Assembly: GCA_002841865.1 (NCBI GenBank)
Contig: PHBD01000016.1
Location: 1-63,822, forward strand
Reading direction: 5' to 3'
Length of the DNA: 63,822 nucleotides
From: Deltaproteobacteria bacterium HGW-Deltaproteobacteria-19
GTDB taxonomy: Bacteria > Desulfobacterota > Syntrophia > Syntrophales > PHBD01
Made by a program: the position numbers and the translations under genes. Below the pieces are notes generated by a model. That model was not told where the DNA came from. It searched no databases and worked only from the letters and a program-made list of their open reading frames with translations. Below, piece by piece: positions 2,754-36,201 of this stretch. Position 1 is the stretch's first letter. Every line of letters begins with the position of its first letter.

Positions 2754-2830
2754 GGTTCTTGCCATTCCTTTCTGTAAGTTTTGATACGCCGCCCCCGCGG
2801 GCAACCGTTTCTTCCTTGGCGCGGGTGCTG

Positions 2831-2951
2831 TCGCGGGGGTTCCCGCCGTCGCGGAGACTTTTCCGCGGGCAGCCTTGCCGGGCCGGATTGCCATCCGGGT
2901 GGAAAAGTCTCCTAATCGCTCCTCTGGGAACCCCCGGCCGCGCCCCCGCGG
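2831..2951. repeat. structured palindromic element A, copy 1
   Basis: A nested palindrome. The outer arms GGGGGTTCCC (2835-2844) and GGGAACCCCC (2926-2935) pair perfectly over 10 bp. The inner arms GGAGACTTTTCC (2853-2864) and GGAAAAGTCTCC (2901-2912) pair over 12 bp. An apical hairpin CCGGAT/ATCCGG sits at 2883-2898. A related copy lies in opposite orientation at 14306-14425 and differs in the inner stem only by compensating changes. It lies in the gap between the FAD oxidoreductase and thiolase genes. Function unknown: a REP-like element or a structured RNA are both possible. Confidence 0.75.
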
Positions 2952-2983
2952 CTGATCGGCCCTGGTAAAAGAAGGAGGTGAAA

Positions 2984-3004
2984 CCCTTTTCCGCAGGAAA
3001 AGGG
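2984..3004. other. perfect 9-bp hairpin CCCTTTTCC/GGAAAAGGG
   Basis: Arms 2984-2992 and 2996-3004 with a 3-base loop. It lies downstream of the minus-strand FAD oxidoreductase gene and could reduce read-through, but only a short T-rich stretch follows it, so I do not call it a firm terminator. Confidence 0.4.
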
Positions 3005-3040
3005 AGCTCCCTTGTTATTTTATGCGTTGCCCCGGCCCGG

Positions 3041-3160
3041 TCGGCCTTCAAAAAGGCCGCAGGCAAGGCGCGCAAACCCCGAGGAGTGAGGCGTACTTTA
3101 TGTACGCCGCAGCGACGAGGGGTGCCGCGCAACGCAGCATCCGGCCTCTTTCAAGGCCGA
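3041..3160. repeat. intergenic repeat element B, copy 1
   Basis: About 120 nt. The ends are inverted (TCGGCCTT and AAGGCCGA), followed by the shared cores GCAAGGCGCGCAA, TGAGGCGTACTT and AACGCAGCA. Related copies lie at 16669-16790 (opposite orientation) and 31218-31337. It ends 2 bases before the stop codon of the FAD oxidoreductase gene. Similar large-hairpin repeats are common between deltaproteobacterial genes; their role is not known to me. Confidence 0.7.
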
Positions 3161-3162
3161 CC

Positions 3163-4689
3163 CTAGCGGATGCCGAAGTCCTTGCCCAGAATCTCCCCCG
3201 CACAAATCACGCCCGAGGCGATGGCGCAGTCCATGGCCACACCGTATCCCTTGGCGGTGTCTCCCGCGAAGAAAAGTCCCTTGACGTGCTCCGACCGGAC
3301 GGGCACCTTCTGGGTCCCCGCCTGGTTGATGCTCTTGGCAACGCCTTCCAGCTTCCAGCAGACCAGGTCGAGCTTCCAGTCGATGCTCTCCTTGAAGCCG
3401 GGGTAGATCTCCTCCATGAATTCCGGAAGCCGAGCGACGATCTTTTTCACCAGCTCGGGATTCCGGGACTCCTTCTCCGTCAGGGGCAGGTAGGCCGTGT
3501 AGAGGTACTTCCCTGCCGGGGCAACGGAGGGATCCACGGCGGACTGGATATTCCAGCAGATGTACACGTCGTAGTCGTAGCCCTCCGATTTGGGGAGGAT
3601 GCAGGTGTTCTTGAGGCCCATTTTTGCCTCTTCCTCGGGCATGACGAGCTTGTTGAGGCCCATGTACGGGGCGTAGCTGCCGTAGCCGTACATGGACTCG
3701 ACCTTCGTCGACCAGGCCTCGGGGAAATACTTCCGGTCGATGACCTTGAAGGTGTGCTGGGCCGGGATGTTGCTGATCACCGTGTCGGCCAGGAACGTCT
3801 CTTCCCCGTCGGGGGTTTCGACCCGAACGCCGGTCACCTTGGCATCGTCCACCTTGATCTCCAGGACCCGGGACTTGTAAAGGATCTCGCCACCGAACCC
3901 CTTGAGCTTCTCAACGATGGCCTTGGACCACTCCATCGTGCCGTTGCCGACGAACCCGCCGACAAAACCCAGGACGTTCCGCGTCAGCTTGGGACCGAAG
4001 GCGTGCTTGAAGTATCGGAAGATGTCTCCCATGGAGATGTCCTTCGGGTCGTTGATCGTCGAGAAGAGGGTGCCCACGGAGTGGAGGTGGTCGAAGAGGA
4101 TGTCGCTTTTCGTGATGCCCTTGCCCTCCGCCCATTCCTGGAAGGAGACCTTCTCCAGCCGGTCGATTTCCTCCTCCGGGAGTCCGTAGGCTTCGTAATA
4201 GAAAGAGAGGAAGGGGATTTTCATCTCCTTGCCGATCTTCTTGAGCTGCGGGTCGACAAAGGTTCCGGCCACGTCGCGGTAGAGCGTTCCCTTGAAGTAG
4301 TTCCCGTACATGGCGCCGTGCTTCGCCACCTCCGGGAGCCCGCCGATCAGGTCTTCGAAGTCCAGCATGTAGCCGGCGCCGTTGGCGCTGATGGCGTGAT
4401 AGCCGATGTCGAGGGTGTAGCCGTCGAGCATCCGGTCCGCCAGGATCTTCTCGATTGCCGGGTCGGAGTCGGCAATGTAGGTGAACTGGGAGGCCAGGAC
4501 CTTCTTGTACCAGTCGAGACCCTTGTCGGCGATTTCCTTCCCCTGGATGGACAGGGCGCGTCCCCCCGGGCGATCGAGCTGCTCGAGAACCAGGACCTTC
4601 TTGCCTTCCTTGGCGAGGAGGGTGGCCACGGAGAGCCCTCCGACTCCCGCGCCGATCACGATGGCGTCGTATTTCTTTGCTGATGTCAT
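3163..4689 (-). CDS. CrtI/phytoene-desaturase-like FAD-dependent oxidoreductase
   Basis: A protein of 508 residues. The N-terminus has an FAD-binding GxGxxG motif (DAIVIGAGVGGLSVA) and then the 'RPGGRA' segment; the C-terminus has the 'GLFFAGDTAKGYGVAMD' FAD motif of phytoene-desaturase and retinol-saturase-like enzymes. Relatives desaturate, saturate or isomerise polyene chains. Carotenoid synthesis is unlikely, since no phytoene synthase or other crt genes are nearby. It follows a CrtC-like gene by 33 bases in a beta-oxidation cluster, so redox or isomerisation chemistry on an unsaturated, perhaps isoprenoid, substrate is plausible. The exact reaction is open. No signal peptide is seen. Confidence 0.82.
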   Translation of the reverse strand: MTSAKKYDAIVIGAGVGGLSVATLLAKEGKKVLVLEQLDRPGGRALSIQGKEIADKGLDWYKKVLASQFTYIADSDPAIEKILADRMLDGYTLDIGYHAISANGAGYMLDFEDLIGGLPEVAKHGAMYGNYFKGTLYRDVAGTFVDPQLKKIGKEMKIPFLSFYYEAYGLPEEEIDRLEKVSFQEWAEGKGITKSDILFDHLHSVGTLFSTINDPKDISMGDIFRYFKHAFGPKLTRNVLGFVGGFVGNGTMEWSKAIVEKLKGFGGEILYKSRVLEIKVDDAKVTGVRVETPDGEETFLADTVISNIPAQHTFKVIDRKYFPEAWSTKVESMYGYGSYAPYMGLNKLVMPEEEAKMGLKNTCILPKSEGYDYDVYICWNIQSAVDPSVAPAGKYLYTAYLPLTEKESRNPELVKKIVARLPEFMEEIYPGFKESIDWKLDLVCWKLEGVAKSINQAGTQKVPVRSEHVKGLFFAGDTAKGYGVAMDCAIASGVICAGEILGKDFGIR

Positions 4690-4722
4690 GACTTTGCTTT
4701 CCTTTCTATGCGGTATGGCCTG

Positions 4723-5745
4723 TTACAGGACCATGAATTCGTGGAGCAGCTCTCCCTGGACGGTATCCGTCTTTCCGTCGATCTCGATGTCCATCCTGTA
4801 GTCGCCGAGGAACCGGAAATAGTACTGGTCCCAGGCGGCGGCCTTGGGAAGCTGCATGGTCTCCACGAGCCGGGTCGTGTCGATGGCCAGTTTCATCTTC
4901 ACGCCCAGGTTGTCGGTTGTGAGCACGAGGCTGTTTGCGTATTCCTGCCCGATCTTGGGGTCCTTGGTGAAATTCCCGAGTTCCGTGTGCATGATGTTCG
5001 TCGACAGGACGATCTCATTGCCCCTGGCGATGAGCAGGGGCGCGAAGACGGGCGCCTCGGGGTCCCGCGGCAGCACCCAGCCGTAGTCGAGGCAGTAGTC
5101 GCCGCTGTGGATGCGGCCCCAGTACCAGGAGGAGCAGACCTCGTGCATCCGTGCGTTTCCCCAGTTATGGTCGTGGTAGGCGGCCCCCTTCACGGGGATC
5201 GTCCCTTCCTTCATGTACAGCTCGCCCTCGACCTCCGCGTAGGGAACGGGAACGACCCAGCCGGCCACCTTCCCCGTCTCCTCGTTCTTGTAGTTGAATC
5301 CCGTTCCCAGCTTCCAGCCGGGGACGACGTTCTTGAGGACGAGCCTTGCGCCTATCTTGTTGATGATCATGGACAGCTCATAACGGCCGTCTCCCAGGTC
5401 CTTCAGCCAGCTGTCGCCCATGCGGACGTCGCACCAGTCCGGCCCGGCATAGGTCTCCTCGGGCTTCCACACGGCGTAGCGCGCCGTCTGCGTGCCGTCG
5501 GGCCGGTAGATCATGAGCTGGGTCGTGGGGATGATGGGGTTCATGAACTGGTTCCGGTAGTGGTACGTCAGCACCATGTGGTAGCCGTTGTCGAAGGAGC
5601 AGTCCACGTACCACCACTCGTAATAATCGCCTTCCGTGTAGATGTGGCTTGCGTCGTCACGGCGCTGGTAGTTCGCGGGATTCCGCACCGCGCCGGGGAC
5701 GCCGTCGAAGGAGGCCAGGAAACACCGCTTTTCTTTTTCTTCCAT
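4723..5745 (-). CDS. CrtC-like (hydroxyneurosporene synthase/AttH, lipocalin-fold) protein
   Basis: A protein of 340 residues with two hallmarks of the CrtC/AttH family: 'YYEWWYVD' near residue 43 and 'AAYHDHNWGN' in the second half. CrtC adds water to an isolated terminal double bond of acyclic carotenoids; most other members are uncharacterised. No signal peptide is present, so it is probably cytoplasmic. A GGAGAT ribosome site stands 6 bases before the ATG. Its position between DUF35 and CrtI-like genes suggests hydration, or the reverse, of a non-activated C=C bond in the pathway. That is inference. Confidence 0.8.
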   Translation of the reverse strand: MEEKEKRCFLASFDGVPGAVRNPANYQRRDDASHIYTEGDYYEWWYVDCSFDNGYHMVLTYHYRNQFMNPIIPTTQLMIYRPDGTQTARYAVWKPEETYAGPDWCDVRMGDSWLKDLGDGRYELSMIINKIGARLVLKNVVPGWKLGTGFNYKNEETGKVAGWVVPVPYAEVEGELYMKEGTIPVKGAAYHDHNWGNARMHEVCSSWYWGRIHSGDYCLDYGWVLPRDPEAPVFAPLLIARGNEIVLSTNIMHTELGNFTKDPKIGQEYANSLVLTTDNLGVKMKLAIDTTRLVETMQLPKAAAWDQYYFRFLGDYRMDIEIDGKTDTVQGELLHEFMVL

Positions 5746-5762
5746 GGTTTATCTCCGTTTCC

Positions 5763-6218
5763 TCAGAGGGGTTTGAAGTATTGAATGTCGAGGATGTTCC
5801 CCTTGCGGTCCTTTGCGAATACGGGTTGAACCCGCATGCCGATGTGCACCTTGCCTATCTCGACCTCGTCGAGGAAATGGGCCATGCCCGTGTCGGCGCC
5901 GTCGAGCCGGATCACGGCGTAGATGAACGGTGCCGTCCGCGGCTGGATCGGCTCGGAGTAGGTCACGAGGGTGAAGGTCTCCACCGTCCCGAGGGGGCCG
6001 ATCTCGACCATGTCCTTGAGCTCACCGAAACAGAAGGTGCAGACGGACCGGGGAGGCCAGAAGACCTTGTTGCAGGCCTTGCAGGGCGACCCGAGAAGCT
6101 TCTTCTTATCCCGGAGACTCGTGAAGAAGCGGCTTCCCGCCTTTCCGGCCCAGTAGTTTCCATGGGCCGTCAGGTGCTGGTCCACTTCGAAGGGTTTGTA
6201 TTCCGTCTTGTTTTCCAT
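5763..6218 (-). CDS. DUF35 OB-fold/zinc-ribbon protein
   Basis: A protein of 151 residues with zinc-ribbon Cys pairs 'CKACNKVFWP' and 'CTFCF', then an OB-fold with 'YAVIRLDGADTG'. It closely resembles the DUF35 proteins at 117 and 6236. The ATG at 6218 is preceded by GGGGAGGAATGACAAG, a good ribosome site, so I prefer it to the in-frame ATG at 6239. It overlaps the upstream region of the next DUF35 gene with only 17 bases between them. Likely forms a complex with one of the two thiolase-fold proteins encoded upstream. Confidence 0.85.
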   Translation of the reverse strand: MENKTEYKPFEVDQHLTAHGNYWAGKAGSRFFTSLRDKKKLLGSPCKACNKVFWPPRSVCTFCFGELKDMVEIGPLGTVETFTLVTYSEPIQPRTAPFIYAVIRLDGADTGMAHFLDEVEIGKVHIGMRVQPVFAKDRKGNILDIQYFKPL

Positions 6219-6235
6219 CTTGTCATTCCTCCCCT

Positions 6236-6742
6236 TCATCGTGATTTCGTTTGGGGCTTCTTCTGCCCCGGCAGGGGCTCGATGTAGCGGATGTCGCTCA
6301 GGTCGCCGATCCGCTCTTCCTTCGGGCGGAGGACCAGCCGGCAGCGCATGCCCACCCAGACCTTGTCCATGTCGGGCTCGACCTCCACCATGTGGTCCAG
6401 GACCGACGTGGCGCCGTCCAGCCGGACGGAGCCGTAGACGAAGGGAGGCTCATGGGGCTTGCCGGTGGTGGGGTCCGTCAGGGGAAGGTACATGATGGTG
6501 AAGTTCATCAGGGTCCCCTCGTGGGGCAGCTCGACCCACTTTTCATTTTTCACGTGGCATTCCGCGCAGACGACCCGCGGCGGCAACTGGACCCGCTTGC
6601 ACTTCGGGCACTCGACCGCGAAAATCTTTCCATTGTCCCGGAGCTCCGTCAGGCACTTGGTCATGTACCCCCCCGCCGCGAATCGGTATGGCACATCCAC
6701 CGTCATGGGGATGGAGATCCATTCTTTGTCTTTTGTCGCCAT
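6236..6742 (-). CDS. DUF35 OB-fold/zinc-ribbon protein
   Basis: A protein of 168 residues with the zinc ribbon 'CPKCKRVQLPPRVVCAECH' and an OB-fold containing 'YGSVRLDGATSVLDH'. It ends in a short basic tail (KKPQTKSR). The AAGGAGG site stands 5 bases before the ATG and overlaps the end of the thiolase-like gene upstream, so the two are probably translated together. Two thiolase-fold genes followed by two DUF35 genes suggest a heteromeric complex like Ltp2-ChsH2 or BbsAB. Confidence 0.87.
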   Translation of the reverse strand: MATKDKEWISIPMTVDVPYRFAAGGYMTKCLTELRDNGKIFAVECPKCKRVQLPPRVVCAECHVKNEKWVELPHEGTLMNFTIMYLPLTDPTTGKPHEPPFVYGSVRLDGATSVLDHMVEVEPDMDKVWVGMRCRLVLRPKEERIGDLSDIRYIEPLPGQKKPQTKSR

Positions 6743-6752
6743 GGTATCCTCC

Positions 6753-7922
6753 TTAATCTTCCAGCGTCTTGGACAGGGCGGTCATGACCGTCCAGTTGGT
6801 GCCGCCGTATGCCGTCGTCATGGCCCGGCGCACGTCCTTGGGCACCTGATGCTCCCCGGCGTCTCCCCGGATCTGCAGGGCCGCTTCCCAGACGCGGAGC
6901 ATGGCGGAAGCGCCGATGCAGTTCGTCGACAGGACGCCGCCGGAGGGATTGACGGGTATCGGTCCGTCGATGTTCGTCTTGCCCTGCTCGATGAGCCGGA
7001 AGCCCTCCCCGGGTCCGCAGAGGCCCAGATCCTCGTACCAGATCAGTTCCGCCCAGGTTGCCGGCTCGTAGATCTCGAAGACGTCGAAGTACTTTGCCGG
7101 GTCGTCCACACCGAGTTTCCGGTAGAGGCGGCCGGCAGCGGCCTTCGAGAAGATCAGGCGCTCCGTCTTCACGTCCCGCCAGTCGAGCTCGAACTGCTCG
7201 TTGTGGGCCGTTTCCATGGCCCGGATCCAGACGGGTTTCTTCGAGCGGGCCTTTGCCGTCTTCTCGTCCGCCAGGATCATGGCACAGGCGCCGTTGGAGG
7301 CGGGGCACATGTCGAGCATGCGGATGGGCCAGGCCAGCATCCGGGAGTTGAGGGCATCCTCGATGGTGATGTCGAGCTTCAGGTGGGCATACTTGTTCTT
7401 CCGTGCATTCTGCCGGGCCTTGACGGCCACCATGGCGGAGTGCTCCTCCGTGGCGCCCCAGTTGGCGATGTAGGAGGATCCCATCATGGCGAAGTAGCCC
7501 ACGGCCGCACCGGCCATGGAGCGGCCCCAGAGGGGATTGGCCACGCCGCTCAGGATGGCCCCCGTATCGCCTTCCTCCTGCTTCTCGAAGCCGATGCAGA
7601 GGACCTTGTCGAAGAGGCCGCTGGCTACATGATGGGCCCCGGCGCAGACCGCCGTGGCGCCTACGGTCCCGCCCGTCGTGATCTTGACGCCCTGCTTGCC
7701 GTAGGCCCCCGAGCCGTGGACGAGCCAGCAGTCCGTCAGGTGGACGCCTTCGAAGAACTCCATATTTCCCAGGATGACCAGGTCGATCTCGTCGATGGTC
7801 ATGCGGGCGTCCTTCAGTGCGGCGCGGACCGCCTCGTTGACCATTTCCGCCTGGTCCACATCGTGGCGGCGCGCTGCATGGTAGGTCTGGCCGCCGCCGA
7901 TGATGGCTACATTTCGTTTCAT
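6753..7922 (-). CDS. thiolase-fold protein lacking catalytic Cys and His (SCP2-thiolase/Ltp-like)
   Basis: A protein of 389 residues with the SCP2-thiolase layout: start VAIIGGGQTYHAA, the 'NPSGGVLS' loop, and 'IRGDAGEHQV'. Where thiolases carry the nucleophilic Cys (CxSG) this one reads T86-V-G-A, and the GHPxGATG motif reads TNCIGASA, so His is replaced by Asn. Normal thiolysis therefore looks impossible. Steroid-degrading Ltp2 aldolases are thiolase-like, lack this chemistry and need a DUF35 partner, which here is the next gene. The SD GGAGGTAAGCC precedes the ATG. Retro-aldol cleavage of a beta-hydroxyacyl-CoA is my best guess. Confidence 0.85.
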   Translation of the reverse strand: MKRNVAIIGGGQTYHAARRHDVDQAEMVNEAVRAALKDARMTIDEIDLVILGNMEFFEGVHLTDCWLVHGSGAYGKQGVKITTGGTVGATAVCAGAHHVASGLFDKVLCIGFEKQEEGDTGAILSGVANPLWGRSMAGAAVGYFAMMGSSYIANWGATEEHSAMVAVKARQNARKNKYAHLKLDITIEDALNSRMLAWPIRMLDMCPASNGACAMILADEKTAKARSKKPVWIRAMETAHNEQFELDWRDVKTERLIFSKAAAGRLYRKLGVDDPAKYFDVFEIYEPATWAELIWYEDLGLCGPGEGFRLIEQGKTNIDGPIPVNPSGGVLSTNCIGASAMLRVWEAALQIRGDAGEHQVPKDVRRAMTTAYGGTNWTVMTALSKTLED

Positions 7923-7938
7923 GGCTTACCTCCGTCCT

Positions 7939-9084
7939 TCAGTTTCCGAGTACGACGACGCACTGGTGCTGGCCGCAGAACCCGGTGTGACCCTGGGCAA
8001 CGGCGATATTCGCCCCCCTGACCTGGCGGTCGCCCGCTTCTCCCCGGAGCTGGAGAGCCGCTTCCGCCACCCGGTTCAGTCCCGCCACGTTGGCGGGAAC
8101 ACCCGACAGGAGCCCTCCCGACGGATTGACCGGCAGCTTTCCGCCGATGGCGGTGGCGCCGGAGGCGGTGAACCGCCCGGCCTCTCCGCGGTCGCAAAGG
8201 CCGAGTCCCTCCAGCCAGAGCAGTTCCTGATAGGAGAACTCGTCGCCCACTTCCGCCAGGTCCACCGAGCGCCGGGGGTTTTTGATGCCCGCCATGGCGT
8301 AGGCGCGTCCGGCGGCTTTTTCCAGGGCGAAGGTGTCCGCCAGGTCCCGGTCGCCCAGGTAATGGGCGTCGTAGCAGGTCCCGATGCCGAGAATCCAGAC
8401 GGGCTTGTCGGTGATCTTCCGGGCCCGCTCCTCCGAGGCCAGGATCAGGGCCACGGCCCCGTCGGCGTCCGGCGCGATGTCGAGCTTGTGCAGCGGCGGC
8501 GCTACCGCGGGGGAGGAGAGGACGTCCGCGACGGTGAAGTCGCCGGACTGGGAGGCGCAGGGATTGCGCTTCGCGTTGGCCAGGTTCTTCACGACGACCC
8601 GGGCCGCGTCCTCCCGCGTAATCCCGTATTTGTACATGTATCTCCGGGCCTGGAGGGCGGCGGCGGAGGTGAAGTCGAATCCGAGCATCCGTGTGTAGAT
8701 GGGGTCGAATGCGACGTTATTGACGATGTGACGGTTTGTCTGGGACATCTTGGTGTGGGCCATGATCAGCGTGCAGGAATATTCCCCGGAGAGAATTCCG
8801 ACGGCCCCGTAGAAAACGGCCGTCGATCCGTCCATGGCCATCTTTTCCTCCGCCCGCAGGTGTCCGCCGATGACGTCGGTGATGCCGATGTCCGAGATGG
8901 TCTGGCCGTCCCAGATGTCGTGGGAACAGCTGATGGCGCTGTCTATGTCCTCGGGCAGGGCCAGCCCCGTGTCCTTGAGAACCTGGGAAATGGCCTCGTA
9001 GGCCATTTCGCCGTAGTTGACGTCGGACCGCTTCGGTGCGAAGCGGGTCTGGGCCACGCCTACAATGGCGACTCGTTCGGTCAT
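7939..9084 (-). CDS. thiolase-fold protein lacking catalytic Cys and His (SCP2-thiolase/Ltp-like)
   Basis: A protein of 381 residues, paralogous to its downstream neighbour. It begins MTERVAIVGVAQTRFAPKRS. The Cys position aligns with Met84 (AMDGSTAV) and the GHPxGATG position reads GVPANVAG, so both catalytic residues are missing. NPSGG and the C-terminal 'GHTGFCGQHQCVVVL' are kept. The frame is open much further upstream, but the ATG at 9084 has a GGAGG site and the family start. It lies 16 bases from the next thiolase-like gene; they probably form a heterodimer served by the two DUF35 proteins. Confidence 0.85.
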   Translation of the reverse strand: MTERVAIVGVAQTRFAPKRSDVNYGEMAYEAISQVLKDTGLALPEDIDSAISCSHDIWDGQTISDIGITDVIGGHLRAEEKMAMDGSTAVFYGAVGILSGEYSCTLIMAHTKMSQTNRHIVNNVAFDPIYTRMLGFDFTSAAALQARRYMYKYGITREDAARVVVKNLANAKRNPCASQSGDFTVADVLSSPAVAPPLHKLDIAPDADGAVALILASEERARKITDKPVWILGIGTCYDAHYLGDRDLADTFALEKAAGRAYAMAGIKNPRRSVDLAEVGDEFSYQELLWLEGLGLCDRGEAGRFTASGATAIGGKLPVNPSGGLLSGVPANVAGLNRVAEAALQLRGEAGDRQVRGANIAVAQGHTGFCGQHQCVVVLGN

Positions 9085-9189
9085 GCCTGCCTCCTTCACC
9101 GGCGGCCGCAGGCGCCTCCGCCGGGACCGTGATGGACGGTTTCCTCCGGGCGGGAGGTCGGCGTTCGGGCGCCGGTCATGGGTTGATAG

Positions 9190-9217
9190 CCCGGTGCGCC
9201 CGCACGGGCACACCGGG
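9190..9217. other. strong 13-bp hairpin (one mismatch) between thiolase genes
   Basis: CCCGGTGCGCCCG (9190-9202) faces CGGGCACACCGGG (9205-9217), with 12 of 13 pairs and a 2-base loop. It lies in the 155-base gap after the minus-strand thiolase gene. No T-run follows, so a factor-independent terminator is not supported; an mRNA-stabilising or attenuating hairpin is possible. Confidence 0.45.
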
Positions 9218-9239
9218 GCCTGGTGGTTTCTTGTCGATT

Positions 9240-10424
9240 CTATAACCGCTCGAAAATTGTCGCGATTCCCTGGCCTCCGCCGATGCACAGAGTGGCCAGT
9301 CCGTAACGGCCGCCGGTCCTCTTCAGGTGATGGAGCACCGCCAGGCTCAGGCGGCCGCCGCTCATGCCGTTGGGATGCCCGAAGGCGATGGCCCCCCCGT
9401 AGGGGTTCCATTTTTCGGGATCGACGGCATGGCCGTTCTTTTTCAGCTCCTTCATGACGGCCAGGGTCTGGGAGGCAAAGGCCTCGTTGCATTCCACGAT
9501 GTCCATGTCCGCCAGTTTCAGGCCGGCCCGGTCCAGGGCCTTCGGAATGGCATAGGCCGGTCCGATGCCCATGTACTTCGGCTCCACGCCGGCCAGGGCG
9601 CAGGTGACGAAGCGGCCCAGGGGCTTGAGCCCCAGGGATTCGCATTTTTCCTTCGCCATGAGCAGGAGGGCCACGCCCCCGTCGTTCATGCCCGAGGAGC
9701 TGCCGGCAGTGACCGTTCCGCCCTTCTTGAAGACGGGCCTGAGCGATGCCAGCTTCTCCAGCGTCGTCGCCCGGGGATGCTCGTCCCGGTCGAAGACGAC
9801 GGGATCGCCCTTCCGCTGGGGAATCGTGACGGGCACGATCTCGTCTTTGAAATACCCGGCCTCGATGGCCCTGATCGCCAGGGTCTGGCTCCGGAGGCCG
9901 AAGGCATCCTGCTCCTCCCGGGAGATGCCCCACTCCTCCGCCAGGATCTCCGCTACGATTCCCATGGGGGCGTTCGTCTCCGGCGTCGGGCCGACTTCCT
10001 TGGTGATGAAGGCGTTGGGTGCCAGGGAGAAGGGGACCTTCTGGCGTTCCATCAGGTAGGGCGCGTTGCTCCAGCTTTCGCAGCCCCCGGCGATGTAGGT
10101 GTCGCCGAATCCCGCCAGGATGGCCATGGCGGCGGAGTTCACGGTCTGCAAGGCGGATCCGCACTGCCGCTCCACCGTCTGCGCCGTCACGGTGACGGGG
10201 AACCCCGCCTTCAGAACCGCCCAGCGGCCGATGTTGACGGCGGCGTTGTTCGTGCAGGCGTGGCCGATGAGGACGTCCTCCACGATGGCCGGGTCGATCT
10301 TCGTTTTTTCGATGAGCCCCTTGAGGGCAAAGGCGGCCAGCTCCTCGGGGCGGAACCCGGAGAGGGCTCCTCCCATCCGGCCGATGGGCGTCCGGACGCC
10401 GTCGACGATGTATACTTCTCTCAT
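9240..10424 (-). CDS. acetyl-CoA C-acyltransferase (thiolase), catalytic
   Basis: A protein of 394 residues with an intact active site: Cys in 'VERQCGSALQTV', His in 'AFGHPNGMSGGRL' and Cys in 'LCIGGGQG'. It begins MREVYIVDGVRTPIGRMGG, the usual FadA/AtoB start. The ATG at 10424 stands 7 bases after AAGGAGG, which overlaps the stop codon of the enoyl-CoA hydratase gene; a TTG at 10430 is less likely. It would complete the beta-oxidation spiral with the hydratase and dehydrogenase encoded just upstream. Confidence 0.94.
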   Translation of the reverse strand: MREVYIVDGVRTPIGRMGGALSGFRPEELAAFALKGLIEKTKIDPAIVEDVLIGHACTNNAAVNIGRWAVLKAGFPVTVTAQTVERQCGSALQTVNSAAMAILAGFGDTYIAGGCESWSNAPYLMERQKVPFSLAPNAFITKEVGPTPETNAPMGIVAEILAEEWGISREEQDAFGLRSQTLAIRAIEAGYFKDEIVPVTIPQRKGDPVVFDRDEHPRATTLEKLASLRPVFKKGGTVTAGSSSGMNDGGVALLLMAKEKCESLGLKPLGRFVTCALAGVEPKYMGIGPAYAIPKALDRAGLKLADMDIVECNEAFASQTLAVMKELKKNGHAVDPEKWNPYGGAIAFGHPNGMSGGRLSLAVLHHLKRTGGRYGLATLCIGGGQGIATIFERL

Positions 10425-10436
10425 GTTCAAACCTCC

Positions 10437-11222
10437 TTACTTGCCCGTGAAGGCGGGCTTCCTCTTCTCCAGGAAGGCGTTCATGCCCTCGACGCGGTCC
10501 TGCGACCCGAAGCACATGCAGAAGCAGCGCGCCTCGATGGAAAGTCCCGTCCGAAGATCCGCCTGGATGCCCATGTTGATGGCTTCCTTGCCCATGGCCA
10601 GGGCGATGGGGCTTTTGGAGGCGATGCGCTTCGCCAGCTTTGCCACGGCGTCGTCCAGCTCCGCCTTCGGGACCAGCATGTCCACCAGGCCGATGCGATA
10701 GGCCTCCTCGGCCTTGATATGCTCGCCCGTCAGGACCAGCTTCTTGGCCATGCCCACGCCGCAGATCCGGGCGAGGCGCTGGGTTCCGCCGTAGCCGGGG
10801 ATGATGCCCAGGTTGATCTCCGGAACGCCCATGATGGCCGTGTCGGCGGCGACGCGGATGTCGCAGCACAGGGCCAGCTCCGTTCCCCCGCCCAGGGCGA
10901 TGCCGTTGATCCGGGCGATGACGGGCTTCTGGAAGTGTTCGATGTTCCAGGTGATCTGCTGCCCCGCCGGGAGGCCGTGGATGACGTCCAGGTAGCCGGC
11001 TCCCTTGGCCATGATGGAGATGTCCCCTCCCGCCACGAAGGCCTTGTCGCCCGTGCCGGTGAGCACAACCACTCGGACGGCGTCGTCCTTCTCGATTCCG
11101 TTCAGCGCATCCTGGATCTCGAACATGGTGTTGTCCCGGATGGCGTTGAGCACTTCCGGCCGGTTGATGGCGATCGTCGCCACGGCCCCGTCCTTCGTTA
11201 CAATGATGTCTTTGTACTCCAT
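10437..11222 (-). CDS. enoyl-CoA hydratase/isomerase (crotonase family)
   Basis: A protein of 261 residues with the crotonase oxyanion-hole segments 'AFVAGGDIS' and 'IALGGGTELALCCDIRVA' and the catalytic stretch 'PEINLGIIPGYGGTQRLARI', where Glu residues sit as in true hydratases. It hydrates a 2-enoyl-CoA to a 3-hydroxyacyl-CoA. Next in line is the thiolase, with only 12 bases between; upstream is the 3-hydroxyacyl-CoA dehydrogenase. The order dehydrogenase-hydratase-thiolase is typical of clostridial and syntrophic short-chain modules. Confidence 0.93.
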   Translation of the reverse strand: MEYKDIIVTKDGAVATIAINRPEVLNAIRDNTMFEIQDALNGIEKDDAVRVVVLTGTGDKAFVAGGDISIMAKGAGYLDVIHGLPAGQQITWNIEHFQKPVIARINGIALGGGTELALCCDIRVAADTAIMGVPEINLGIIPGYGGTQRLARICGVGMAKKLVLTGEHIKAEEAYRIGLVDMLVPKAELDDAVAKLAKRIASKSPIALAMGKEAINMGIQADLRTGLSIEARCFCMCFGSQDRVEGMNAFLEKRKPAFTGK

Positions 11223-11334
11223 GGAATGATCCTTTCTTTCCGTTCTTTCCGTGTTTGATAGATCGCCTTCATCCGTTCCGGGAACGGTCCGGGGGAAGCG
11301 TCCGTTTCACCCGCGGGGCCTTGACGGCGCCGAA

Positions 11335-12222
11335 TCAGAAAACCTTGAAGGGTTTCTTGGTCCCGTCCGGCAGGTAGTCGTAGAAGCCCTTGCCGTTCTT
11401 GAATCCCAGGCGGCCCGCCTCGATCATCTTGCGATACAGGATGTTCAGCTTGTCCGCCTCCGAGTGGGTGTACTCGAAGACCGAATCCTGGGCCATCTGG
11501 ATGACGTCGAAGCCGCCGAAGTCGGCCAGTTCGCAGGGACCCATCGGGTGTCCCGCGCCCAGCTTCATCGCCGTGTCGATGTCCTCCGCCGTCGCCGTCC
11601 CCTCGAGGACCATCTGGGCGGCCGTCATGTAGAGCGGGCCCAGCAGGCGGTTCACGATGAACCCAGGCGTGTCCTTGACTTTGATGGGTGTCTTGCCGAG
11701 GCGCTTCATTGTATCCAGGGCGATCTCCACGGTCTTGTCCGCCACGCCGACGGGGCAGATGATCTCGACGAGCTTCATCACCGCGGCGGGGTTGAAGAAG
11801 TGGGTCCCCACGACCTGGTCCTTCCGGTTGGTCGCCCCCGCCACGGCCGTGACCGACAGGACGGAGGTGTTTGTGGCCAGGATCGTCTCGGGCTTGCAGA
11901 GCTTGTCGAGCTCGGCGAAGATCTTCTTCTTCAGGTCCAGGTTCTCCGGGACGGCCTCGATGACGAAGTCGGCGTCCTTCACGGCCTCCGCCAGGTCTGT
12001 GGAGGTTTTCAGGCGGCCCAGGATGGTCTTCATCTCGTCTTCCGCCATCTTTCCCTTTGCGACGCGCTTGGCGAGGCTCTTCTGGATCCGGGCGGCTCCC
12101 TTCTCGACGAACTCCGCGCTGACGTCGTAGAGAACTGCATCAAAACCTGCCTGGACGGCGGCCTGGGCGATGCCGTGGCCCATGGTGCCGGCCCCCAGAA
12201 CGGTGAATTTTTTTACTTCCAT
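11335..12222 (-). CDS. 3-hydroxyacyl-CoA dehydrogenase
   Basis: A single-function enzyme of 295 residues (Hbd/FadB C-terminal type). The NAD-binding Rossmann motif is 'VLGAGTMGHGIAQ'; the catalytic 'GTHFFNPAAVMKLVEI' holds the His of the His-Glu dyad; 'KDTPGFIVNRLL' is the domain linker. It oxidises 3-hydroxyacyl-CoA to 3-ketoacyl-CoA with NAD. AAAGGAG stands 8 bases before the ATG. It lies 112 bases before the enoyl-CoA hydratase gene. Confidence 0.94.
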   Translation of the reverse strand: MEVKKFTVLGAGTMGHGIAQAAVQAGFDAVLYDVSAEFVEKGAARIQKSLAKRVAKGKMAEDEMKTILGRLKTSTDLAEAVKDADFVIEAVPENLDLKKKIFAELDKLCKPETILATNTSVLSVTAVAGATNRKDQVVGTHFFNPAAVMKLVEIICPVGVADKTVEIALDTMKRLGKTPIKVKDTPGFIVNRLLGPLYMTAAQMVLEGTATAEDIDTAMKLGAGHPMGPCELADFGGFDVIQMAQDSVFEYTHSEADKLNILYRKMIEAGRLGFKNGKGFYDYLPDGTKKPFKVF

Positions 12223-12396
12223 GATGATGACTCCTTTCTTGGGTATTCCCGTCCCCGTCCACCGGGACGGGCATCGGGCTTTTTCAGGCGCTCCCCCGGG
12301 GATGACGGGCGGAGGGTGGCTCCGGAGGGGTGGAGGCCGGTCCCTCCCTCCCGTTCATCCAAGGAGGATGGCGCAAAATCTCATTTTAAATCGGGT

Positions 12397-13956
12397 TTAC
12401 TTCCCAAACTCCTTCTTTATTTCGTCATAGAGGTCGAGTTTCTTCACTTTGCCCAGCAGTGTCAGGGGAAGCTGGGCCCGGAAGATCACGTCCTCGGGGA
12501 TCTTGTAATTCGCCAGCCTGTCTTTCAGAAACGTCTTGATTCCCTCGGCTGTCGGGTTCGTCCCGGGCTTCGGCATGATGTATGCGCGGCCCACCTCACC
12601 CATGACCGGGTCGGGCCTTCCGACAACGGCACTCATCATGACGTCGGGGTGCTTCGCCAGGGCCTCTTCCACCTCCGGCGGGTAGACGTTTTCGCCGCCA
12701 CGAATATACATCTCCTTTTTCCGGCCCACGATGGCGAGGGAGCCGTCCTCTTCGATCCGCCCCATATCGCCGGTATGGAAATACCCTTTGTTGTCGAAGA
12801 CCCGTTTGTCCTCGTCGGGCCGCTTCCAGTAGCCTTTCATGACGGGGTCGCCCTTGAGGGCGATCTCGCCCACCTGGCCCATAGGCAGGACTTTGTTCTG
12901 TTCGTCCATGATGACGAGGTCCACCCCGGGGATGGGCCGGCCGACGGAATATTTCAGTTTCTCCTCGCCATGGTCCGGGTGGGTGAAGGTGATGGCCCCG
13001 CTCACCTCGGTGAGCCCGTAGGCGTTCCGGGGCATGACGCCCATTTTGCTCCGAATCGCCAGGATCAGCTCCGACGGGCAGGGCTGGCTGGAGACGATGG
13101 CCACCTGAATGGACGTAAGATTGTACTTTTCCACGTTGGGGTTCAGGAGCTCCAGGGCGTACTGGGCCGGCACCTGGCCGATGACGGTGATCTTTTCCTT
13201 CTCGATGGTCTTGAGGGTCTCCTCGGGGTTGAACATGTCCATCATGACGACGGTGTTGCCCGCGTTCAGGCAGGCAATGACGGCCATGACGGCGCCCCCG
13301 ACGTGGTTCAGGGGGATGTTCAGGAGGAGCCGATGGTCTCCGGAGAAGCCGGTACTGGCGATCTGGCCGCCGGTGTAGGAGATCAGGTTCCGGTGGGTCA
13401 GGACGGAGGCCTTGGGCACACCTGTGGTGCCGGAGGTATAGATGAACAGGGTCGGATCGTCGGGCTGCACGGCCGCCTTGGCCTTTTCCAGGGCCGGTCC
13501 CGGTTCGGCCAGGAAGTCGTCGTACGGAATCATTCCCTCCGCTGCCTTGTCCCGCTCCAGGATGACGACCTGGCGAAGGGAGAGAAGCTCGCCCCGGACG
13601 GCGGCCAGGTTCTGAATGAAGTCCATGCCCATGAATCCCGCTGTCATGGCGAGGACGGAGATCCCGGCGTCGTCGATGACGAACCGGATCTCTTGAGGTG
13701 TGAAGCGCCAGCTCACGGGAACCGCCACGGCGCCGATCTTCACGGCGCCAAGATAAACGAAAAGGTGTTCCGGCCAGTTGGGAATGTAGATGCCGATGCG
13801 GTCACCCTTCCGGACCCCGAGCTTGAGCAGCCCGGTGGCGACGCGGTCCGTCATCCTGTCGTAATCGCGAAAGGTAAAGCGCCGGTCCTGGAAGACAACG
13901 GCTTCCCGGTCCGGACGTTCCGCAGCGTATTTCTTCAGAAAATCTCCCAGCACCAT
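12397..13956 (-). CDS. AMP-forming long/medium-chain acyl-CoA ligase
   Basis: A protein of 519 residues in the ANL superfamily: P-loop 'YTSGTTGVPKASVLTHRN', hinge 'YFHTGDMGRIEEDGSLAIVGRKKEM', 'GGENVYPPEVEEALAKHP' and the C-terminal 'LGKVKKLDL' with the acylating Lys. It activates a carboxylic acid to its CoA ester using ATP. The ATG at 13956, 7 bases after GGAGGG, gives the usual start MVLGDFLKKYAAERPDREA; the in-frame ATG at 13989 would add 11 residues. The acid it uses is unknown. Some 500 bases of repeats and hairpins separate it from the PaaK-like ligase gene. Confidence 0.9.
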   Translation of the reverse strand: MVLGDFLKKYAAERPDREAVVFQDRRFTFRDYDRMTDRVATGLLKLGVRKGDRIGIYIPNWPEHLFVYLGAVKIGAVAVPVSWRFTPQEIRFVIDDAGISVLAMTAGFMGMDFIQNLAAVRGELLSLRQVVILERDKAAEGMIPYDDFLAEPGPALEKAKAAVQPDDPTLFIYTSGTTGVPKASVLTHRNLISYTGGQIASTGFSGDHRLLLNIPLNHVGGAVMAVIACLNAGNTVVMMDMFNPEETLKTIEKEKITVIGQVPAQYALELLNPNVEKYNLTSIQVAIVSSQPCPSELILAIRSKMGVMPRNAYGLTEVSGAITFTHPDHGEEKLKYSVGRPIPGVDLVIMDEQNKVLPMGQVGEIALKGDPVMKGYWKRPDEDKRVFDNKGYFHTGDMGRIEEDGSLAIVGRKKEMYIRGGENVYPPEVEEALAKHPDVMMSAVVGRPDPVMGEVGRAYIMPKPGTNPTAEGIKTFLKDRLANYKIPEDVIFRAQLPLTLLGKVKKLDLYDEIKKEFGK

Positions 13957-14462
13957 GATGTTGCCCTCCTTTTGTCTGGCTCCCTGCATGGATGTCGGTT
14001 GTTTTCCCCGTCGCCCCGATACGGACGGGCTCTCCGGTTTTGGAGAAGCCCGCCCGTCGGGAAGGATCCTTTCCGCCGGCGCCGCCCCGCCCGTTCGCCT
14101 TTCCGCTGCCTCAAACCCCGCGCCTTGGGGGGAAACGGTTGCGCCGGAGACCGGTCGTCCGTTTCCCCCGCCGGTCGGGGAAGGGAGGCGATGGCGTCGC
14201 CTTACATTCTTTCTTTTTTCTGTTCAGGCGGGTTTCCCGGACCACCCGGGCACAGATTTAAAAAATTACCCTTCCTGAACTTTTTCGTGCCTCTTTACGC
14301 TTCGTCCGCGGGGGCGCGGCCGGGGGTTCCCAGAGGAGCAATTGGAAAACGTTTCCGTCTCCCAGGCTCTTCGGTTTCAGAAGGCGAAGAGCGGAAACGT
14401 TTTCGCGACGGCGGGAGCCCCCGCGCCCCATGGGCCGTCCCGTCTCCCGTCTGATCCCTTTC
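13957..14462. other. 506-base intergenic stretch of hairpins and a repeat
   Basis: No credible gene is seen in either strand. It holds an imperfect hairpin at 14024-14058 (GACGGGCTCTCC against GGAGAAGCCC plus CCGTC), a very GC-rich middle, and element A copy 2 at 14306-14425. The gap divides the cluster into two likely transcription units, one ending with the PaaK-like ligase and one starting with the acyl-CoA ligase. Confidence 0.55.
14306..14425. repeat. structured palindromic element A, copy 2 (inverted relative to copy 1)
   Basis: Outer arms GGGGGTTCCC (14322-14331) and GGGAGCCCCC (14413-14422) pair with one G-U. The inner arms are GGAAAACGTTTCC (14344-14356) and GGAAACGTTTTC (14393-14404). 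An apical hairpin GCTCTTCG/CGAAGAGC follows. Compared with copy 1, three positions of the inner stem differ on each side, and every change keeps pairing. The flanking CCGCGGGGGCGCGGCC block is shared exactly. Confidence 0.75.
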
Positions 14463-36025: not shown

Positions 36026-36101
36026 GGGGATGTAGCTCAACTGGGAGAGCGCGGCGTTCGCAATGCCGAGGTCAGGGGTTCGATCCCCCTCATCTCCACC
36101 A
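36026..36101 (+). tRNA. tRNA-Ala (anticodon CGC)
   Basis: 76 nt including an encoded CCA end. The acceptor stem GGGGATG/CATCTCC pairs with one G-U. The anticodon loop TTCGCAA gives CGC, reading GCG. The T-loop TTCGATC is standard. It lies 23 bases before tRNA-Arg on the same transcript. Confidence 0.95.
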
Positions 36102-36124: not shown

Positions 36125-36201
36125 GCCCCCGTAGCTCAGGAGGATAGAGCACCGGATTCCTAATCCGGGTGCCCCGCGTTCGAGTCGCGGCGGGGGCACC
36201 A
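36125..36201 (+). tRNA. tRNA-Arg (anticodon CCT)
   Basis: 77 nt with an encoded CCA. Acceptor GCCCCCG/CGGGGGC; anticodon stem CCGGA/TCCGG around TTCCTAA, so anticodon CCT reading AGG. The 3' part is repeated at 45508 and more weakly at 50683, showing that this gene is an integration target. The gene itself is intact. Confidence 0.95.

Follow-up and report, generated by a model that had tools for sequence, protein, structure and literature searches.

A dispersed palindromic element with covarying hairpin arms in a Syntrophales genome and its relatives

The contig PHBD01000016.1 of Deltaproteobacteria bacterium HGW-Deltaproteobacteria-19 (order Syntrophales; assembly GCA_002841865.1), of which we analysed a stretch of 63,822 nucleotides (hereafter the window), contains two copies of a palindromic, hairpin-forming sequence that we designate module A. 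The two copies are mutually inverted, copy 1 being on the plus strand and copy 2 on the minus strand, and the flanking open reading frames (ORFs) are all on the minus strand (Table 1). A preliminary description, made from the sequence alone, had located the copies at 2831-2951 and 14306-14425 and stated that they face opposite ways relative to transcription. Both copies and their orientation are borne out, but copy 1 starts at about position 2818 rather than 2831, as the element includes the outer arm CGCGGGTGC/GCCCCCGCG.

The left arms of the 12-bp inner stem differ between the two copies at 3 of 12 positions (GGAGACTTTTCC versus GAAAACGTTTCC), and the right arms (GGAAAAGTCTCC and GGAAACGTTTTC) differ at exactly the three partner positions, so that every pair is kept, just as had been described. 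Three changes placed at random in the right arm would do so with a chance of about 1 in 6,000 (1/220 × 1/27, by arithmetic). Both copies fold more stably than dinucleotide shuffles on either strand (z from -3.3 to -4.4). The apical sequences, also reported to pair, do fold in both copies. By eye, no tip structure common to 29 individually folded module A copies is seen, and tip pairing is for that reason weak evidence.

Table 1. Positions of module A features in the window
Feature	Position	Strand	Basis
Module A copy 1	2817-2950	+	Match to covariance model R3, 138.2 bits; the R3 training set (25 copies) includes copy 1
Copy 1 outer helix, 5' arm	2820-2828 (partner 2942-2950)	+	Counted structure; positions read off the sequence
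Copy 1 middle helix, 5' arm	2834-2844 (partner 2926-2936)	+	Counted structure; positions read off the sequence
Copy 1 inner covarying stem, 5' arm GGAGACTTTTCC	2853-2864	+	Sequence, arm comparison and covariation count
Copy 1 inner covarying stem, 3' arm GGAAAAGTCTCC	2901-2912	+	Sequence, arm comparison and covariation count
Site adjoining copy 1; its G001 counterpart bears an inverted module B, absent here	2770-2817		Pairwise alignment
Module A copy 2, with 12-bp deletion	14307-14435	-	Match to R3, 118.3 bits; deletion relative to G001
Copy 2 inner stem, 5' arm GAAAACGTTTCC	14393-14404	-	Sequence and arm comparison
Copy 2 inner stem, 3' arm GGAAACGTTTTC	14345-14356	-	Sequence and arm comparison
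Junction of the 12-bp deletion in copy 2	14415-14416		Alignment with G001

Module A is dispersed in the genome to which the window belongs (G000; 3.98 Mb, 87 contigs) and in the one genome of the same genus that was compared (G001). Copy 1 used as a DNA query against G000 gave 36 matches at E-values up to 0.001. Another module A copy, searched against 60 genomes, was present in G000 and in G001 (17 matches in the latter); 57 of the remaining 58 genomes had no match, and one (G051) had a single match of 26 bases. Among these 60 genomes, module A thus appears, by sequence similarity, in one genus only. A module A pattern had 0 matches in the genome contig collection. Using a hand-structured covariance model built from 25 copies (R3), 65 loci of the two genomes yielded 73 matches at E-values up to 1e-5, eight of which are the same palindrome on the opposite strand; the other 65, counted off the table of matches, comprise 32 in G000 loci and 33 in G001 loci. 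One weaker match (L196:1462-1658, E-value = 1.3e-4) overlaps a copy of module B, described below, and was left uncounted. A model-based search for further copies was the check that the preliminary description had proposed, with a lack of copies or non-compensatory stem changes to be taken as speaking against it; further copies were found, and their stem changes are compensatory.

Module A is about 135 bp long. Its three helices, an outer one of 9 bp, a middle one of 11 bp and an inner one of 12 bp, are stacked and separated by unpaired stretches that are conserved. The inner arms were placed in 63 copies, four copies without a locatable left arm being left out, and 669 of 693 scored positions are Watson-Crick pairs (the others being 4 G.T, 6 A.C and 14 of other kinds; 17 gaps are set aside). 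Eight distinct inner-stem sequences occur fully complementary among these copies. In alignment A5, which holds 25 gap-free copies out of 29 listed (other stem lengths were left out), the inner helix is 98.7% paired and exhibits both-sided changes at 6 of its 12 pairs. Over the whole structure, 50 cells are changed on both sides, against 16.4 in shuffled alignments (0 of 500 shuffles reach 50) and 0-9 in slid controls. Two further measures do not stand out: the number of pairs with a double change, 7, is reached by 23 of 500 shuffles, and the number of further pair types, 12, lies under the shuffled mean of 14.3 and is reached by all 500. The evidence for covariation in module A comes mostly from the inner helix, because the outer and middle helices are almost invariant, and only a modest number of stem types are independent. 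The earlier view that structure rather than sequence is kept is sustained by these counts. RNAalifold, applied to a first alignment (L024 left out), missed the inner stem, the stem-length classes being misaligned, and the model derived from it (R1) was not used.

In three loci (L089:1227-1467, L099 and L008:935-1174), a different repeat (GGGCTGTTGAAAAA ... TTTTTGAACAGCCC) sits within the module A tip. Four G000 contigs (C22, C28, C57 and C71) end in module A copies or within about 100 bases of them, so that the assembly is apparently interrupted by these repeats.

In many cases, module A forms part of a larger foldback element of about 430-490 bp, with the order T-A-B-T'. T is a short palindrome with the core CGGATTTSAAATCCG, followed by an inward T-rich run, and by eye resembles an intrinsic terminator. 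It is followed by module A, a nested hairpin of about 185 bp (module B), an A-rich run and T', an inverted T, which provides the aligned copies with terminal inverted repeats. Among 16 aligned copies bounded by T, module B is present in 14 (one with an assembly gap) and partial in two. The T core occurs exactly at 17 places in G000 and at 30 in G001, and its reversed control pattern at none; in the window it is not above chance (2 matches at up to 3 mismatches, 3.1 being expected). A 461-base composite had no match among plasmids and phages, nor did viral contigs contain an exact match for the two patterns tried. These features, namely the outer arm, the composite and the wide distribution of module B, were missed in the preliminary description, which under-described the finding.

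Module B is much more widespread than module A. Of 155 genomes of the order, 39 gave a match to its 119-base core. A covariance model (R2) found it in 91 of 155 genomes in the class search, which covered as many genomes as the order search. In a sample of 395 genomes drawn across the phylum, R2 found it in 50, 41 of them outside the order. The copy numbers given by R2 are lower bounds, since a limited number of candidates was scored (23 per genome in the class search and 9 in the phylum search). In an alignment of 26 B sequences made without reference to structure, 96.1% of cells pair, 15 of 28 pairs exhibit double changes, and both-sided changes are counted in 87 cells, where shuffles give 25.3 and 0 of 500 come up to 87. 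For 79 model-fitted sequences (74 distinct), an alignment that leans to its own structure, the corresponding values are 96.2%, 27 of 28 pairs, and 444 cells against 111.5 (0 of 500). Alignment A3 was made without L158, L167, L170 and L175. The inner part of B has the form TGTYTGAG-stem-GAGTT, which is also found in most of 21 sequences from outside the order. A pattern for the B inner stem had three matches in the genome contig collection, none of which R2 matches at E-values up to 1. Module B appears to be old, much older than module A, and it is phylum-wide; we consider it the strongest new part of the finding. One of the internal loops of B contains a palindrome of the GGGGACAG...CTGTCCCC type in L170 (near 1490) and in L216 (near 4866 and near 8838).

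Rfam 15 gives no real match for A or B. At the gathering threshold, the window matches only two tRNA genes (36026-36098 and 36125-36198). Among 13 loci with A or B, searched at E-values up to 1, the only match is mir-3926 in L166, on both strands, with 42 bits against a gathering score of 82.

The locations of A and B differ between related genomes, being present and absent at orthologous sites. Two composite loci (L116 and L100) correspond in the other genome to sites that lack both A and B and hold only one T (L096 and L151, respectively). At a third orthologous locus, G000 (L027/L113) and G001 (L082) exhibit different A stem types. For module B, the R2 class search found at least 21 matches in one genome (G036) and none in its genus mate (G020). 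A 16-kb stretch of G036 bears B in four intervals; at three of them nothing but a minimal spacer between the genes is found in G020, and at the fourth a spacer of other sequence. In G001, the site orthologous to copy 1 holds the same A with an inverted B in front of it. The window lacks this B; A and B can therefore be flipped relative to each other. No module B is detected in the window by R2 at E-values up to 0.01. At the site orthologous to copy 2, G001 has 12 more bases and the window copy is the shorter form. From these alignments, the window copies appear to be reduced forms of the larger composite, copy 1 without B and copy 2 with a 12-bp deletion. Adjoining copy 1, at 3036-3166, the window bears another palindromic repeat, which has many matches in G001 (query about 1537-1667).

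The preliminary description had proposed a search for a RAYT gene elsewhere in the genome, RAYT being the Y1 transposase associated with repetitive extragenic palindromes (REPs). We found no support for RAYT as the mover. The corresponding domain, PF01797, has 0 matches in G000 and 0 in G001. Within the order 111 of 155 genomes have it, as do 5 of 14 control genomes, and the presence of B in the order does not track it: 27 of 39 genomes positive for B by BLAST carry PF01797 against 84 of 116 others (Fisher p = 0.69), and 64 of 91 positive by R2 against 47 of 64 others (p = 0.72). The T core, which was tested alone and not with the A and B models, was absent from 11 Y1-transposase neighbourhoods of relatives. 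At L088, the only pair of distant T copies that was looked at, no transposase was recognised among the intervening ORFs.

We favour, with moderate confidence, the view that the two window copies belong, in reduced form, to a dispersed palindromic element that is non-autonomous, similar to miniature inverted-repeat transposable elements (MITEs) or to REPs, that is gained and lost at intergenic sites and has its fold used by a mobility or recombination machinery. The full form would be the T-A-B-T' foldback with its inverted terminator-like palindromes at both ends. Its folded strand, as a hairpin or a cruciform, would be the substrate of the machinery, and we propose this use as the reason why the two arms of a hairpin change in step. 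The fold would act mainly at the DNA level, an enzyme acting in trans on the hairpin would move the element, and a solo T might be an excision scar. In favour of this view are the dispersal of A in two genomes, the covariation of its inner stem, the T-A-B-T' arrangement, the flip of A against B in G001, the small share of wobble pairs and the mixed orientation of B to its neighbouring genes (figures for the last two are given below). The presence and absence at orthologous sites also favours it and fits the REP-like or transposable hairpin that had been suggested from the two copies; the RAYT part is not supported.

Several observations weigh against this interpretation. Four loci from four genomes of two families (L178, L180, L182 and L183) share the position of B between two homologous genes, which by their protein sequences look like guaA and carB, with flanks 67-81% identical; some B copies are therefore old and kept rather than moving. 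A target duplication cannot be read, because both empty sites (L096 and L151) keep one T. No mobilising enzyme was found, PF01797 being the only transposase family searched. The mismatches of B on the drawn strand are more often G.T than A.C (59 against 23; 53:21 in distinct rows, 13:6 outside the order; the cells are not independent), which suggests that this strand folds and would also fit an RNA. B also has conserved unpaired loops. The low wobble share among standard-pair cells (only 2.8% for B, 0.7% for A), although favourable to the interpretation, is a figure that lacks an RNA control.

One alternative takes B, and possibly also A, to be a structured non-coding RNA, the genes of which are copied around genomes and the arms of which covary since folding is required of the RNA. 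The strong covariation of B across the phylum, its unpaired motifs, its G.T excess and its fixed location in the four genomes would all be expected of such an RNA. The low share of wobble pairs and the failure to match any Rfam family speak against it, as does the mismatch asymmetry of A (5 G.T against 29 A.C, mostly from one column pair), which indicates the opposite strand even though A is next to B. The orientation of B relative to genes is mixed as well. Out of 74 distinct copies, 61 were placed by crude gene calls, nine being at an edge and four far from genes; between co-directional genes B runs opposite to them in 30 cases and with them in 12, and another 12 copies lie between convergent and seven between divergent genes. 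The gene calls around A are crude too and misplace window copy 1, and no claim on A orientation rests on them. The GC skew of the flanks, set against the orientation of B, is uninformative (31 positive and 43 negative of 74). Together with the terminator-like T runs pointing inward from both ends, the mixed orientation argues against a fixed cis-acting RNA, and we regard the RNA explanation as rather unlikely. Nevertheless, B may have a role as single-stranded DNA or as RNA, given its strand asymmetry and the fixed position that it keeps in some genomes.

The matched arms might also be mainly mutational in origin, template switching within the palindrome copying one arm onto the other so that both change at once. 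This would agree with the inner helix of A, where 43 cells are changed on both sides, only two are one-sided changes to a standard pair and four are unpaired. It would also agree with the likeness of T and T' within one copy, which extends to the centre bases: T' is closer to the reverse complement of its own T than to those of other copies (mean score 25.0 against 20.8; 18 copies, orthologous pairs among them; 0 of 10,000 permutations). However, the outer and middle arms and the loops are constant while the stems change, the structure of B is kept across the phylum, and the absent intermediates may be simple lineage history, because the independent stem types of A are few. We consider template switching an improbable main cause. 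Integron attC-like recombination sites, which are folded single strands recognised by structure, would likewise keep their structure while the stem sequence varies, but no gene-cassette array was evident in the loci that were read, no search having been made for attC core motifs or for an integrase, and we give this explanation hardly any credence.

A bolder reading, less likely than not, is that module B represents a class of mobile hairpins, strand-specific and phylum-wide, which would move as single-stranded DNA or via RNA by means of an as yet unrecognised enzyme other than a Y1 transposase. In this genus B would have been joined to A and T as a new composite. A repeat family with arms that covary throughout a phylum, with a presence that varies within a genus and with no known mover would indicate that hairpins can be moved or maintained in a way not recognised so far. 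Module B also supplies a clear and testable structural model for a family missing from the Rfam release used.

The element was not matched here to a described family, and it is best filed under dispersed non-autonomous palindromes, outside the REP/RAYT system. Geobacter metallireducens belongs to the same wider group as the host. Several multicopy, partly palindromic intergenic families have been described in its genome, and the motifs printed in the main text of that study, which is the basis of the comparison rather than its supplementary alignments, are unlike A, B or T (PMC2700814). The parts consulted of two surveys of bacterial structured RNAs contain no mention of such an element (PMC8632094, PMC11109978), and in the portions of the papers reached by a literature search of limited extent no description of A or B was found. 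REPs, according to the consulted part of PMC2817692, are short, carry GT(A/G)G as their head and are situated beside a RAYT gene. The present element shares with them and with bacterial interspersed mosaic elements (BIMEs) the multi-copy intergenic palindromes, the occurrence in both orientations and the composite arrangements, but module A is longer, no GT(A/G)G head was noted, and the genus lacks PF01797 (PMC2817692). Compared with prokaryotic MITEs as presented in the consulted part of PMC10969869, the element is GC-rich rather than AT-rich and contains internal hairpins, A and B, that covary; no parent transposon was found for it in what was looked at (PF01797 and the ORFs between the T pair at L088), and no target duplication could be read at the two empty sites. 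It resembles them in being short, non-autonomous and intergenic, in bearing terminal inverted repeats (T and T'), in folding into stem-loops, and in its presence or absence between relatives (PMC10969869).

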